A DNA stretch of 64,000 nucleotides from NCBI RefSeq assembly GCF_013391805.1, contig NZ_CP058364.1, positions 248,001 to 312,000 of the forward strand. The letters are read 5' to 3'. The notes beneath the pieces are model-generated. The model searched no databases. It worked only from the letters and a program-made list of their open reading frames with translations, and was not told the DNA's origin. This document shows positions 5,562 through 10,817 of the stretch, piece by piece. Both the position numbers and the translations under genes were made by a program. Source of the DNA: Galbibacter sp. BG1 (lineage in GTDB: Bacteria; Bacteroidota; Bacteroidia; Flavobacteriales; Flavobacteriaceae). Within the stretch, counting starts at the first letter, position 1. Each line of letters begins with the position of its first letter.

Positions 5562-6464
5562 TTAGGATCCAGAAACTTCTTTAATTACAAAAAAACCATC
5601 GTTCCCTTGGGTTTGGTATAAGGGCATAAAGATATGGGCATCCCACTTGCTTATAACTTTGTGTCCATTTTCTTTTGCCAGCAATTGCCCCTTGGTAATT
5701 TTACTGAAATTCTCAAAACCTGATTCCATGGCGAAAGATACTTTTTCATCGAGTTCGTGGCGATAGAGAATTTCAAATGTCTTCTGGTCGGGAGCATTTT
5801 CTTCTGAAAATTTGGTGACACATTCTGGATAACAAGAAATTTCTTCCAAATTTAGGTCACACGCTTTTTCAAGAGCCAACCATATCATTCCTTCATGATT
5901 TTCTTGTGCTTCATCACTTGTGTGCTGCCCAGCTTCAAAAACAAAACCAGTGATACCAATCCTACTAAGGTAATGGTCGATATCCCCTGTGATAATATCA
6001 CTAAAGCCTCTAACGATATAGGTAGGGAACAGGTGCGCCCATACATCATTATCGTTCACCTCTTGCACCGAAATGAAAGGTAAACTTGCAGAAGAAGTCG
6101 TATGGCAGTCTAAAAAATATCTTTCGGTAAATGCTTCCCTGCTTTCGTCTTCCAGCACTTTCATGATCTCATACATTTCCTTATGTTCGTGGGATTTTTC
6201 AACACGGGAACTTATATTTTCTTTCGTCCAGGTGCGGTTTAAATCTTCATCGATATATCTTACACCTTCTTTTAGTGCTTTTTTATTCCCTGCAACACCT
6301 AAAACAGTCCCATTTATAATCGGCTTTGTTTTATTCAATTCTTTAAAAACCTTTTGTAAGGCTTTGACCCCGCTAGGTTCGTTTCCATGAATACCGGCCG
6401 TAATAAAAAGCAAAGGTCCTTTTTTATCGCTTGAATATTTTCCTATTATTCTATCTACCTCCAT
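5562..6464 (-). CDS. succinylglutamate desuccinylase/aspartoacylase family (M14) hydrolase
   Basis: A zinc-dependent amidohydrolase of 300 residues, last gene of a three-gene cassette. The zinc ligands of the AstE/AspA family are visible: HGNEPSG gives His26 and Glu29, and DCHTTSS gives His121. DEDLNRTW (72-79) fits the substrate-binding Asn-Arg, and FEAGQH gives Glu177 as the likely catalytic glutamate. Family members remove acyl groups from N-acyl amino acids or cleave terminal residues. The arginine succinyltransferase pathway is not nearby, so true succinylglutamate desuccinylase activity is doubtful. The gene starts 22 bases after the ATP-grasp gene ends, so the two are probably co-transcribed and act on a related substrate. 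Confidence 0.85.
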   Translation of the reverse strand: MEVDRIIGKYSSDKKGPLLFITAGIHGNEPSGVKALQKVFKELNKTKPIINGTVLGVAGNKKALKEGVRYIDEDLNRTWTKENISSRVEKSHEHKEMYEIMKVLEDESREAFTERYFLDCHTTSSASLPFISVQEVNDNDVWAHLFPTYIVRGFSDIITGDIDHYLSRIGITGFVFEAGQHTSDEAQENHEGMIWLALEKACDLNLEEISCYPECVTKFSEENAPDQKTFEILYRHELDEKVSFAMESGFENFSKITKGQLLAKENGHKVISKWDAHIFMPLYQTQGNDGFFVIKEVSGS

Positions 6465-6486
6465 AATTTAATATTCTATTTTTCTT

Positions 6487-7536
6487 TTAATACATAGTTG
6501 CCAACACTTTATTTGCTAGTTGTCCGCCGTATTTTTGCTTGTAGAATAGCTTCCGCTCTATGGATTCTATAATGGTATCTGTAAAATCGGGCAGGCCAAT
6601 ATCTGCGAACCTCTCCAAGCCACCCGGACTTAGTACATTGATTTCAATCAATTTATCTTTCACAATATCCAATCCCACTAAAAACAGACCATCTTTTATA
6701 AGCTTTGGAGCTGTTAAGTCAATTATTTGCTTCATCGCCGGCGTAAGCTCGCTGCTATCTGCCGTGGCCCCCAATTTAAAATTACTTCGGAATTCCCCTT
6801 CTCCACTAACTCTTCTAATAATGGCTTTTTCTCCTTTTTCTTCCAGCACTCTTCCATTTAATAAAAGAACACGCACATCACCATCTTTTACCGCTGGCAA
6901 ATATTCTTGGGCAATAACATACCCTTGATCGCTAATGGTTTTTATGATTTGATTGATATTTTTTTCGTGTTCATCAATTAGAAAAACATCGGCACCTCCA
7001 GATCCTTCGAGAGGTTTTAGCACCATTTTCTTATCGTGCGCTTCCCAAAAGGTTAAGATGTCTTCTTTATTCCTAGTGATTATGGAGGCCGGTTTTATTT
7101 CCTTCGGAAGTTCTTCAAAATAGAGTTTATCTATAAAAGCATGCGAAAGCGCGTAGGCGTCATTTAATACCAGCACACCCTGACTCTGGATCATTCTCCC
7201 AAAAGCGATTCCAGATTGTTCGGCCCAATGCCTTTCTGCCCCTTCTTCCGTAGGATTGTTACGGATGAAAAGAACATCCAAATCGGTAGAAACTACTTTT
7301 TTCTTTTTCGCTTTTGCCCCTTGTAAAATTTCTAAAAATTTCTTTGGCGACTTTGTTGTGGTAGATTTGGGAACTTTAGTGGTATTAAGTGTAATCGTAC
7401 CGCCATATTCAAAATTAAAATCGCCCACCCCCATAACAAAAACTTCATGCCCTCTTGCATGTGCTTTTGTCATTAGAGCCACAGAAGTTCCTGCCTTTTC
7501 TTTCTCAATTTTATTTAATACAAAACATATTTTCAT
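6487..7536 (-). CDS. GshB-like ATP-grasp ligase
   Basis: A 349-residue ATP-dependent carboxylate-amine ligase related to glutathione synthetase. Like E. coli GshB it begins with a short beta-alpha N-domain (MKICFVLNKIEKEKAG, then GHEVFVMGVGD), continues with VLFIRNNPT and NDAYALSHAFIDKLYF, and has the ATP-grasp signature VLKPLEGSGGADVF, YVIAQEYLPAVKDGDVRVL and the metal-binding EINVLSPGGLERF. It is longer than GshB (about 315) and there is no gshA here. It lies 50 bases after the DUF1704 gene and 22 bases before the M14 hydrolase gene. From this context I infer that it adds an amino acid or peptide unit to a substrate on which the two neighbouring hydrolases act; glutathione synthesis is possible but not indicated. 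Confidence 0.85.
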   Translation of the reverse strand: MKICFVLNKIEKEKAGTSVALMTKAHARGHEVFVMGVGDFNFEYGGTITLNTTKVPKSTTTKSPKKFLEILQGAKAKKKKVVSTDLDVLFIRNNPTEEGAERHWAEQSGIAFGRMIQSQGVLVLNDAYALSHAFIDKLYFEELPKEIKPASIITRNKEDILTFWEAHDKKMVLKPLEGSGGADVFLIDEHEKNINQIIKTISDQGYVIAQEYLPAVKDGDVRVLLLNGRVLEEKGEKAIIRRVSGEGEFRSNFKLGATADSSELTPAMKQIIDLTAPKLIKDGLFLVGLDIVKDKLIEINVLSPGGLERFADIGLPDFTDTIIESIERKLFYKQKYGGQLANKVLATMY

Positions 7537-7586
7537 TTTATCTTTTTTTAATTATTCCAGCCACCGCCCTTAATTATATTCTTTCG

Positions 7587-9467
7587 TTACTGGGATACAG
7601 ATTCCCGAAGTTCTTCCTGTTCGCTTACCATTTTATGTATGGGGAGTCCGTCTCTTATATCCTTCAATCGGTTTTCGTATAATTTCCCTCCCGCATAACT
7701 CGGTATTAACGCTGGTGGTTGCAGTACTTTACGGTCGGTTAATTCTTTTATAATGTTTACATGATGAAAAGCAAATTTCCCAGTAAACAAAAGTTCGTAT
7801 GAACCACCTTCTTTGAGGTAATTTCTTAGTTTAACCAGGCCTTTCAAATAAATTATATCTTTTAAGAAACCACCTCCCTGCATGATCCTTGAGGTAATAT
7901 TAAAAGCACGCTCTTTACTAAAGCCGTACTCTTTAAACAACAATTGAAAAATCCCCCTAAAATCATAATTATCTATCAAAGCCTTCCCTGCCACCACTCT
8001 TCCGGCGAGGATTCGCAACCGGTTTACTGTGAGTCCACCTGAAAGATACTCTGCCATTACAGCTACGCCTTCCTGCATGGTATCGTAATCTGCCAAACCT
8101 ATCGAGAGCTGTTCAAATGGTTGTTTGCTTCCATTAAAATAGGTAAGCACATGGGTTCCAACCTCGTGTTGAATAAGCGCTTTGGCTTCCATCCTGCCAG
8201 TTTTGTAATCCGCTGGAATATAAAGCTCCCCTTGATTGACCATCATAATGTTGACGTCCTTACGCAAATGTATTTTACTTTTAAACTGATCATCCTGATC
8301 GTGGAAATATTGAAATTCCTTTCTGGCAAAAGATGCAAACTCCCTGGCATCCATGGTAGGTCTATTTTCTTCTTCCATATCATTTGGTAAAAACCTCAAA
8401 ATCTCTTGAGCATTTTTCAATAGTTCGTCATCTACATTTCCATAGAGTTTTAAACCGTTGTAAAAGAAATTTGGACTCCCACGTTCGCTCAGCATGGAAA
8501 TTTGTTGATCTAATTCCTCCCTTTTTTCCCGAAAAAGATGAGACATCGCCGGATCGTCGACATCTTCGATCTTAAGATTGTAAAGTCTTCGCTTTATTAG
8601 ATCGGGGTCTACCGGAAGCAGACGATAATGGTAATCCAGTATTTTCTCGAATCCCGAATTGAAAAAAGTCTTTTTAATGTTGTGAATATTCGAGGGCGAT
8701 ACCAACCACAGAAACTTGTAGGATCGCTCCAATCTGGAAAGCTTTTTATCTATTTCATAAACCTTATCTTTTAAAGACTGCCTGCCCAAGGCTCTAACAC
8801 TTCTTACCCCACAAGACGTCTGTACGCGAATAAAATCGAATACGGCGAGATGAATAGCTTCTATGATCGAATCTTTAAAATCCCTAAAATATAAAGGATA
8901 AAATACCCCATCTTCATCATTAAATGCTGAAGGGATTTCTAAACCCACGACCAATGCCCCGCATTGTTTTGCTTTTGTAATAGTTAAAAGCTTGGCTTTT
9001 CCTTTTGGTTGTCGTTTGCGGGTGTTGGATATAGCAGCTTTAAAATACGCTCCCGACTTACTATCTGGAATATTTTGAAGCGCCTCCTGTAACGTATTTA
9101 AGGTAGAAGGCAAAATATCTTCTGGACCTTTTATACAAAATGAAGTCTTTTCTTTTTCAGCCAAAAAAAGTTCCAGCAGCATATACGATTTAAACCGTGT
9201 AGAGAGTAAATCGGAAATAGCGATTATTAACTTTTGGTATTTTTTAAAATCTTTGTTTCCTATTATAAGATAAGAAGCCTCATTGGCGGCAATTTTTTTA
9301 AGATGGTTGTTTTTTTTACTTCTTCGGTAAACCACCAAATAGGGAAACCCTGGTTCTATATGCAACAAACCTCCTCCTGGCAAAGAACAATTGAGTTCTT
9401 TATTTTCAGCAAGCTGATTTGTAATTTTCTTTATTTCCTTTTCTTCAAGATGGTTAATCTTCCACAT
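7587..9467 (-). CDS. DUF1704 / QEGLA-motif (MATCAP-like) putative zinc carboxypeptidase
   Basis: A 626-residue protein of the family often named 'flavohemoglobin expression-modulating QEGLA motif protein'. Residues 434-439 read HEVGTH, a zinc-metallopeptidase helix with Glu435 as candidate catalytic base, and residues 465-473 read QEGVAVMAE, the family's signature with the likely third ligand. The eukaryotic members of DUF1704 (MATCAP, KIAA0895L) remove the C-terminal tyrosine of tubulin. The N-terminal 200 residues are less conserved, with no signal peptide or membrane segment, so the protein should be cytoplasmic. It is the first gene of a cassette with an ATP-grasp ligase and an M14 hydrolase. 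The substrate is unknown; an amino-acid-trimming role on a protein or peptide is inferred from the family. Confidence 0.88.
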   Translation of the reverse strand: MWKINHLEEKEIKKITNQLAENKELNCSLPGGGLLHIEPGFPYLVVYRRSKKNNHLKKIAANEASYLIIGNKDFKKYQKLIIAISDLLSTRFKSYMLLELFLAEKEKTSFCIKGPEDILPSTLNTLQEALQNIPDSKSGAYFKAAISNTRKRQPKGKAKLLTITKAKQCGALVVGLEIPSAFNDEDGVFYPLYFRDFKDSIIEAIHLAVFDFIRVQTSCGVRSVRALGRQSLKDKVYEIDKKLSRLERSYKFLWLVSPSNIHNIKKTFFNSGFEKILDYHYRLLPVDPDLIKRRLYNLKIEDVDDPAMSHLFREKREELDQQISMLSERGSPNFFYNGLKLYGNVDDELLKNAQEILRFLPNDMEEENRPTMDAREFASFARKEFQYFHDQDDQFKSKIHLRKDVNIMMVNQGELYIPADYKTGRMEAKALIQHEVGTHVLTYFNGSKQPFEQLSIGLADYDTMQEGVAVMAEYLSGGLTVNRLRILAGRVVAGKALIDNYDFRGIFQLLFKEYGFSKERAFNITSRIMQGGGFLKDIIYLKGLVKLRNYLKEGGSYELLFTGKFAFHHVNIIKELTDRKVLQPPALIPSYAGGKLYENRLKDIRDGLPIHKMVSEQEELRESVSQ

Positions 9468-9611: not shown

Positions 9612-10817
9612 TTAGTCTATCGGTCTACGTACCAAAGGCATTTTAAAGGTAAAAGTGGTACGCATATCATCAGACTTCACATTTACTACTCCATTGTGTG
9701 CTTTTGCAATTTCAGAAACAATATATAGCCCAAGACCTAATCCAGATTCGTTTTTAGGTGTATGCTCTTTATAATAAGGCTTAAATAAATTATTGATTTT
9801 TGTGTCCGGTATTTTTTTGCCCCCATTGGTTACCGACATTATAAAGTTTCTATGCTCGATATACACATCTACTTGGAGCGGCTGTTTTCGGCTTCCGTGC
9901 TTTAAAGCATTCCCCAACAAATTAGATAGTAGTTGAGCGATGCGGTGCGGGTCGCATAAAACACTTTCGTTAAATTTGATATTGCTAATTACTTCCCGGG
10001 AAGGATCGAGCGCTCGCGCTTCTGCAATTACTTGCTTTATCTCTTTAAGAAGTTCTTTTCTGTCCCGTTCCAATTTTAATTTTATACCATCCCCTAAATG
10101 TCCTTTCGCAAAATCCAAAAGATTATCTATAAGCTCCTGCATACGGTAGGAAGAAGATTTTATAATATCTATCTGCCTTAACACAGGTTTTGGTAAATCT
10201 TGTTTTAATAAAATATCGGCCGACATCCGGGCTGTGCCAACAGGGTTACGCAAATCGTGCCCTAGTACGGCGATAAACGTTTCACGTAGTTCGGCTATTT
10301 TACGTTCCTCGCGCAGTTGGAGCTTTGTATTTTTGAGATCATCCGTCATTTCCAAATGCAGGGAGATTAATTCCGCATACATTTTGAACATTTCTAAAAT
10401 TTCTGGATTCTTTAACTTTACTGGCTTCGGGTCGAGCGCAAATAAAGTACCGAAGAATTCTTTATTTTTTCTATAAATTGGAACTGCTATATAGCTTTGA
10501 AAACCAAATAAGGGCGGACTCGGGTGTGATGAATAGTAGAGATCTTCGGTAGCATCTTCAATTATCACTTTTTGACCGTGTTCCCTTATTTCGCTACAAA
10601 TGGTATTGTTAACATCTAGTTGGTCGCCAGATTTCAGCTTAAAATTAATGTTATCCATCGAAGTACAGGTAACCCATTCTTTCTCCGTAACCCGTGAAAC
10701 GGCGGCAAAACCCATGCCCGTTGTTTTACAGATTACATTTAAGATGGATGGAACAATCTTAATGTCTTGGATTGATTCCACATCCATTTGTACATCGATG
10801 TCTAATTCTTGATACAT
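9612..10817 (-). CDS. cytoplasmic GAF-domain sensor histidine kinase
   Basis: A 401-residue soluble histidine kinase. A GAF domain spans about residues 25-155 (FAAVSRVTEKEW, CSEIREHGQKVIIED, QSYIAVPIYRKNKEFFGTLFALD), then a short coiled coil leads to the HisKA H-box VLGHDLRNP with His187. The catalytic domain has the N-box LLSNLLGNALKHG and the G-box ESGLGLGLYIVSEIA. There is no membrane segment, so the signal is internal. No response regulator is adjacent; the next gene on the same strand, 144 bases downstream, begins the DUF1704 cassette, and an AraC-family gene lies divergently upstream. The partner is therefore unknown. Confidence 0.93.
   Translation of the reverse strand: MYQELDIDVQMDVESIQDIKIVPSILNVICKTTGMGFAAVSRVTEKEWVTCTSMDNINFKLKSGDQLDVNNTICSEIREHGQKVIIEDATEDLYYSSHPSPPLFGFQSYIAVPIYRKNKEFFGTLFALDPKPVKLKNPEILEMFKMYAELISLHLEMTDDLKNTKLQLREERKIAELRETFIAVLGHDLRNPVGTARMSADILLKQDLPKPVLRQIDIIKSSSYRMQELIDNLLDFAKGHLGDGIKLKLERDRKELLKEIKQVIAEARALDPSREVISNIKFNESVLCDPHRIAQLLSNLLGNALKHGSRKQPLQVDVYIEHRNFIMSVTNGGKKIPDTKINNLFKPYYKEHTPKNESGLGLGLYIVSEIAKAHNGVVNVKSDDMRTTFTFKMPLVRRPID

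Follow-up and report, generated by a model that had tools for sequence, protein, structure and literature searches.

A conserved bacterial module of a MATCAP-like (DUF1704) peptidase and a GshB-like ATP-grasp ligase, with a tentative ligate-and-trim cycle on a small acidic peptide

What could a peptidase of the human MATCAP family, a ligase resembling glutathione synthetase and an amidohydrolase be doing together in one bacterial operon? The question is raised by Galbibacter sp. BG1 (NZ_CP058364.1, positions 248,001 to 312,000), whose stretch of 64,000 nucleotides is called here the window. At 5562-9467, on the minus strand, it carries genes for a DUF1704/MATCAP peptidase, a PRK12458-type GshB-like ATP-grasp ligase and an AstE/aspartoacylase-like amidohydrolase, separated by 50 bases (peptidase and ligase) and 22 bases (ligase and AstE-like gene). 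A first reading of the letters, referred to below as the original prediction, had delimited these open reading frames, their strand and gaps, and had located the HEVGTH and QEGVA motifs of the peptidase and H26, E29 and H121 of the third protein; all of these positions were found to be correct (Table 1). We show that the pairing of peptidase and ligase is a conserved module and not an accident of one genome. With a probability of roughly 0.4, the module may run a cycle of ligation and trimming on a small acidic, possibly N-acylated, peptide.

Association of the gene families beyond this genome was one of the checks that the original prediction had named, and the pair of peptidase and ligase indeed recurs in many bacteria. 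Among 149 genomes of the window's family, taken from 148 genera, DUF1704 was detected in 78 and the ligase in 74, with both in 74, the ligase alone in none and DUF1704 alone in 4 (Fisher p = 3e-38). Among 198 Bacteroidota genomes, DUF1704 was detected in 12 and the full-length-type PRK12458 ligase in 11, all among those 12 (Fisher p = 3e-17); both p values ignore shared ancestry. The line for a full-length-type ligase was drawn at 374 bits in the family, after the gap to the next match (101.6 bits) had been seen, and at 396 bits or more in the phylum, where the gap runs from 396.5 to 214.8 bits. The phylum genome with DUF1704 and no such ligase (G186) encodes a DUF1704 protein 24% identical to that of the window. 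The genes are also physically linked in the family: DUF1704 lies within 5 kb of 85 of the 86 ligase genes, and a same-strand ligase was found within 5 kb of all 25 long-form DUF1704 genes and of 58 of the 66 others (one a fragment).

A wider collection of 80 loci, the best of at least 550 candidates from an alignment of 13 rows (8 of them long forms or fusions), was examined for gene content by six-frame hidden Markov model search; the ligase, DUF1704, N-formylglutamate-amidohydrolase (FGase) and AstE-like profiles were built from 13, 11, 8 and 2 sequences, respectively. The ligase was present within 2.5 kb in 79 loci, with a median gap of 14 bases between profile matches, and the 80th (L059) lies at a contig edge. 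The record titles of these loci name Bacteroidota, Calditrichota, Acidobacteriota, Verrucomicrobiota and Planctomycetota; further titles add Gemmatimonadota, Poribacteria, Pseudomonadota, Myxococcota and Campylobacterota, which brings the count to ten phyla, several of them represented by single metagenome-assembled contigs. Moreover, peptidase and ligase distances are strongly correlated (Mantel r 0.92, a value reached in none of 2000 permutations) over 75 rows, namely 74 loci and the window, the other loci being without a full-length peptidase or a same-strand full-length ligase among the extracted proteins.

The peptidase belongs by score to PF08014 (MATCAP; 279.5 bits against a cut-off of 27). 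It misses the cut-off of TIGR02421, "flavohemoglobin expression-modulating QEGLA" (309.2 against 338.65 bits), and the original prediction was right to call that label uninformative. Residues H434, E435, H439 and E466 are invariant in 46 of 46 aligned long-form proteins, and the strict pattern HExxxH plus QEG(L/V/I)A was found in 73 of 79 peptidases. A profile of 13 homologs matches human MATCAP1 (KIAA0895L, 7z5g) at 9e-16 and aligns the QEG segment of the window protein to the EEG of the human one. The same structure is the best match of the AlphaFold model (pLDDT, the predicted local distance difference test, 93.4) in the PDB, with E 6.5e-9 and a template modelling score of 0.71 by target, and human MATCAP fills ranks 1-4 at 0.70-0.71. 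As for the intact metal site that the original prediction had supposed, its residues are invariant and fall in confidently modelled blocks, a judgement made on sequence and model confidence and not on coordinates. The domain is predicted to be a zinc carboxypeptidase of MATCAP fold, for which we propose activity on an acidic C-terminus. Its nearest relatives among the fetched loci are Flavobacteriaceae (e.g. Salegentibacter, Gillisia, Zobellia), at 59% identity or less.

The long form of this protein carries, ahead of the peptidase, a second domain that matches the FGase profile of the operons in hhalign with a probability of 94.6 (E 7e-8, 157 columns), the five other pairings reaching at most 1.52. 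Of 79 such N-domains, none has a DLNR-like motif and 4 have, somewhere in the domain, a DxH(S/T/A)-like one; the profile alignment sets the FGase D-x-H against E-x-F of the window's protein and against E-x-W of the consensus. In Foldseek, the whole model gave FGase 2q7s, YndL and a carboxypeptidase A among its weak matches (E 0.002-0.02). The long protein thus seems to pair an inactive FGase with an active MATCAP domain. An FGase is also fused to the short-type DUF1704 in one locus (L018) and in Photobacterium and Vibrio, which suggests that both act together.

The ligase scores 163.1 bits with GSH-S_ATP and 40.6 bits with GSH-S_N, and falls within the PRK12458 subfamily NF009110 (423.5 bits, cut-off 408). 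It misses the GshB equivalogs TIGR01380 (183.8 against 299.05) and NF003573 (198.9 against 272), and the RimK equivalog NF007764 (37.8 against 331). The KPLxGSGG loop is present in the window and, by a slightly wider pattern, in 80 of 81 ligases; across 24 sequences D290 and N300 are invariant and E298 is at least 90% conserved, residues which we take, by analogy with GshB, to be the metal ligands. Among the 50 listed of 685 structural matches of its AlphaFold model (pLDDT 89.5), GshB (1gsa) is best, followed by RimK and then by LysX/ArgX and graspetide ligases; 1gsa is also the nearest PDB entry. Compared with Escherichia coli GshB and two Bacteroidota GshB proteins encoded next to GCS2, the module ligases keep the ATP-grasp core. 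In place of two GshB blocks, KDPPFDxEyIxATYILExAEE and SPTxIxEI, they have other sequence, at the second block mostly SPGG(L/I/M); these blocks may line the acceptor site. Six operons (L019, L020, L035, L036, L103, L104) contain two ligases, which suggests more than one ligation step.

The third protein was rightly recognized as AstE-like. It belongs to the AstE_AspA_cat superfamily PF24827 (73.7 bits against 25) and stays below the AstE and aspartoacylase equivalog cut-offs (58.6 against 305.65 and 62.4 against 180). Taken together, the three proteins score as members of PF08014, PRK12458 and PF24827 but pass the cut-off of no functional equivalog that was tested. Its best PDB sequence matches are succinylglutamate desuccinylases (1yw6 best) and aspartoacylases. 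H26, E29, H121, N76, R77 and E177 are invariant in 13 of 13 sequences, and the motifs HGNE, DLNR, D(C/L)HTT and ExGQH are all present in 36 of 37 AstE-like homologs of the operon; the HxxE, NR, H and Glu motifs presumably serve zinc and substrate binding. The active-site motifs that had been pointed out in all three proteins are intact. The account of the third enzyme was nonetheless incomplete, as its slot alternates between two families and the peptidase itself holds a degenerate FGase domain. Of the 80 loci, 33 have an FGase in this slot, mostly upstream of DUF1704, 37 have an AstE-like gene next to the ligase and 10 have neither; no locus has both. Catalytic motifs are present in all 32 extracted FGase proteins, and the window's genome, searched as a single contig of 3.71 Mb, gave no FGase match. 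AstE-like genes mark one Bacteroidota clade, and FGase most of the lineages sampled outside it. Since hhalign found no match between the FGase and AstE-like profiles (probability 1.52), we regard the swap as one family taking the place of the other in a single slot. On a DUF1704 tree of the window and 79 of the 80 loci (L059, which is cut short, was left out) one change of label suffices for the 68 labelled rows, so the swap is a single event. In this quick, midpoint-rooted tree, the branch of the 38 AstE rows alone has a support of 24, and together with two rows having neither gene a support of 97.

We propose that the three enzymes, by prediction one maker and two breakers of amide bonds, would act on one shared compound. 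The ligase would spend ATP to attach an amino acid at the carboxyl terminus of an acidic (Glu/Asp-type, possibly N-acylated) amino acid or peptide, the DUF1704 domain, presumably with its zinc, would take the C-terminal residue off again, and the FGase or AstE-like enzyme would cut the remaining N-acyl group or terminal amide to release the free acidic amino acid; the likely order is acyl-acid, ligation, trimming and deacylation. An analogous set, built from other folds, is found in the animal N-acetylaspartylglutamate cycle, which consists of the ligase RIMKL, glutamate carboxypeptidase II and aspartoacylase; it shares amide ligase, carboxypeptidase and N-acyl-acidic-amino-acid hydrolase activities with the cycle proposed here, but it is an animal pathway and its carboxypeptidase belongs to another family. 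The acidic preference is suggested by family resemblance to FGase, AstE/aspartoacylase, the poly-glutamate ligase RimK and MATCAP/TMCP; the human MATCAP/TMCP enzymes are described in PMC10499314 as taking off C-terminal glutamates and shortening polyglutamate. A further hint is a gene for an SDF-family symporter (glutamate/dicarboxylate type, below equivalog cut-offs), which is directly attached to that of the ligase or of DUF1704 in 6 of 12 loci.

A search for a substrate gene bears on the size of that compound. For each of the 80 loci we took, on either side, up to three same-strand open reading frames that encode about 100 aa or more and lie no further than 150 bases from the core genes. 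This gave 50 frames, some genes perhaps being hidden by antisense frames. No substrate protein or precursor resembling ribosomally synthesized and post-translationally modified peptides, of at least about 100 aa, travels with the module, shorter frames lying outside the search, and this favours a small molecule.

Expression data may touch the same genes. In Photobacterium damselae at low salt (1% NaCl), the excerpts of PMC10308900 report increases of 38-fold for "GshB" A0J47_RS17020, 27.5-fold for QEGLA A0J47_RS17025 and 52-fold for RimK. Because the first two adjoin by locus tag on chromosome II and the same pair occurs in Photobacterium sp. DA100, this "GshB" is probably the module ligase.

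Several observations weigh against the proposed cycle. Four of the 78 family genomes with DUF1704 have no ligase, and 8 of 91 DUF1704 gene copies have none within 5 kb, therefore the peptidase can work alone. In only 42 of the 75 rows do peptidase and ligase have the same nearest neighbour. Neither FGase nor AstE is nearby in 10 of the 80 loci, in some of them because the contig ends. The ligase differs in parts from GshB, and its substrate is not readable from homology. Finally, the salinity-regulated gene is identified by position only.

The most probable alternative, though we still consider it unlikely, is the tagging of protein tails, with the ligase adding and DUF1704 removing a C-terminal residue on a cellular protein as TTL/MATCAP or RimK/RimB do. 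The absence of a linked substrate gene of at least about 100 aa, the GshB-type N-terminal domain of the ligase and its RimK score speak against it, as does the action of FGase and AstE on free amino-acid derivatives. The original prediction had suggested a cycle like tubulin tyrosination on a protein or peptide. For such a cycle on a protein no support was found: the same neighbour search offered no gene of at least about 100 aa for a protein to be tagged, and TTL is absent among the 50 listed of 685 fold matches of the ligase. The module and the cycle of MATCAP/TMCP (KIAA0895L, KIAA0895) with TTL do share the peptidase family and fold, HExxxH with a third Glu and an ATP-grasp partner; they differ in the GshB-like ligase, the extra FGase or AstE-like enzyme and the long form with its degenerate FGase domain. 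That human MATCAP is a protein C-terminal carboxypeptidase, as reported in parts of PMC10499314 and PMC13269789, counts in favour of a protein tail. RimK, second to GshB in the listed fold matches, and the protease RimB form a proven bacterial ligase and protease pair on an acidic tail in excerpts of PMC11957791. These describe the rim operon (RimABK, ribosomal S6 glutamylation) as joining an ATP-grasp ligase of similar fold to a partner protease; RimB is, however, a retropepsin-like aspartic protease, whereas the partner in the module has a metallopeptidase motif and the module ligase lies under the RimK cut-off. The Anbu operon is another conserved bacterial operon, of unconfirmed function according to excerpts of PMC6376114, that unites an ATP-grasp protein resembling glutathione synthetase and a putative peptidase; its alpha-E, transglutaminase-like and Anbu families are not those of the module. 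A bolder version, in which the degenerate FGase domain would read a reversible C-terminal tag on a bacterial protein and the module would foreshadow, in prokaryotes, the tubulin tail code, seems to us decidedly improbable.

It is also improbable, though a little easier to imagine than such a forerunner, that the module serves glutathione or a glutathione-like thiol, with the ligase a true glutathione synthetase or a relative and the hydrolases recycling the product. The family is named glutathione synthetase and GshB is the nearest structure and fold with the same ATP-grasp core, but the window ligase is below both GshB equivalog cut-offs, has the two altered blocks, lacks a GCS2 or Glu_cys_ligase partner here and occurs only with DUF1704 in the 149 genomes. 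The original prediction had allowed for a ligase making glutathione with a distant gshA. No glutamate-cysteine ligase of PF04107 (GCS2) or PF04262 (Glu_cys_ligase) was matched in the window's genome, nor were PF08886 and PF03074, for both of which the controls also gave no signal. In the family, GCS2 is present in 17 of 74 module genomes against 12 of 75 others (Fisher p 0.31), in the phylum sample it is absent from 9 of 11 module genomes and PF04262 from all 198, and the GshB genes that lie within 1.5 kb of GCS2 in two Bacteroidota genomes are another, lower-scoring kind (193.9 and 214.8 bits). With GCS2 independent of the module and absent here, glutathione synthesis was rejected as the main explanation and as a general function; it stays a rival, especially for the short-type ligases. 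Two of these from other genomes pass NF003573 (281.6 and 279.4 against 272) and miss TIGR01380 (237.4 and 235.1 against 299.05). A GCS2 protein is present in 12 of the 21 genomes of fetched loci, and two loci have a rhodanese-domain gene between a short-type ligase and an FGase (L019 10816-11637, L022 5770-6609), the former with mercaptopyruvate sulfurtransferase as its best match, below cut-off. Distinct from the module, a pair of an about 420-residue GCS2 protein and an about 500-residue ATP-grasp protein recurs in Bacteroidota (e.g. G030:C1:4270444-4272091, G124:C1:3436506-3438100, G022:C172:13528-15227).

Least probable is a scavenging or detoxifying set, in which an acidic peptide or N-acyl amino acid from outside the cell would be degraded by the hydrolases and a product capped or repaired by the ligase. 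The patchy spread (DUF1704 in 12 of 198 Bacteroidota genomes, 126 plasmid records) and the SDF-family symporter at 6 of 12 loci would fit, but a ligase never without DUF1704 in 149 genomes suggests a central and not an optional role, and among the neighbours of the 80 loci, which were clustered and mostly not annotated, no gene for uptake or secretion is shared between families.

Other neighbours of the module are of limited range. Recurring clusters are confined to one taxonomic family, e.g. c10 in 5 and c19 in 4 Flavobacteriaceae loci, the exceptions being an FGase and two additional copies of DUF1704 in L097 and L104. Because the genes upstream vary among relatives, the histidine kinase at 9612-10817 of the window was ruled out as a module member. 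A DUF413 gene directly precedes the module in Photobacterium (L140 6835-7239) and in Vibrio (L139 7930-8289), the latter locus being without a ligase. The window's genome has a second, short DUF1704 gene (G000:C1:3249771-3250796; L017 7763-8923) with no ligase nearby, which overlaps by 4 bases a gene for an SDF-family (glutamate/dicarboxylate-type) symporter (L017 8920-10359), the pair spanning G000:C1 about 3249760-3252360.

On mobile elements, DUF1704 homologs were found in the 126 plasmid records mentioned, 79 of them from Sinorhizobium, and pSymB of Sinorhizobium meliloti 1021 carries a complete module of FGase, DUF1704 and ligase (L141 8039-11840). Six of nine plasmid or phage loci examined have the ligase, three of the six being S. 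meliloti; the loci without it come from Vibrio sp. HDW18, from a Pseudoalteromonas plasmid and from an unverified record of a Pseudomonas phage. The Pseudoalteromonas locus (L143 8692-9972) has a short divergent DUF1704 near choline-betaine and arginine catabolism genes. The record labelled Pseudomonas phage Y1 (UNVERIFIED) has a DUF1704 homolog (L144 5512-7017) with no ligase within about 6 kb, and could be host sequence.

Table 1. Position of the operon features in the window and the evidence for each
Feature	Position	Strand	Evidence
DUF1704/MATCAP-like metallopeptidase, long form, 626 aa	7587..9467	-	PF08014, 279.5 bits
Degenerate FGase domain, N-terminal 240 residues	8748..9467	-	Profile comparison, catalytic motifs lost
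HEVGTH metal-binding motif, residues 434-439	8151..8168	-	Sequence, conservation
QEGVA, residues 465-469, presumed third ligand Glu466	8061..8075	-	Sequence, conservation
GshB-like ATP-grasp ligase (PRK12458 type), 349 aa	6487..7536	-	NF009110, 423.5 bits
AstE/aspartoacylase-like zinc amidohydrolase, 300 aa	5562..6464	-	PF24827, 73.7 bits

No description of the module was found in the literature searched on QEGLA, DUF1704 and PF08014 themes; the survey of Iyer et al. 2009, reportedly covering ATP-grasp and other amidoligases, may list it. A DUF1704 gene is present in 77 of the 148 genera in the sample of the window's family, under a name that is silent on mechanism, with its partner filed as glutathione synthetase. 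Both "glutathione synthetase" and "flavohemoglobin modulating" are misleading names, and the former probably led the authors of PMC10308900, as far as its excerpts show, to read a strongly salt-regulated gene, identified by position, as glutathione synthesis. One section of PMC10499314 describes MATCAP/TMCP as a tubulin-tail enzyme and surveys it in eukaryotes only. The bacterial operon gives the MATCAP fold a testable role without tubulin, and identification of the compound would make sense of a pathway that extends, judged by record titles, over ten phyla.

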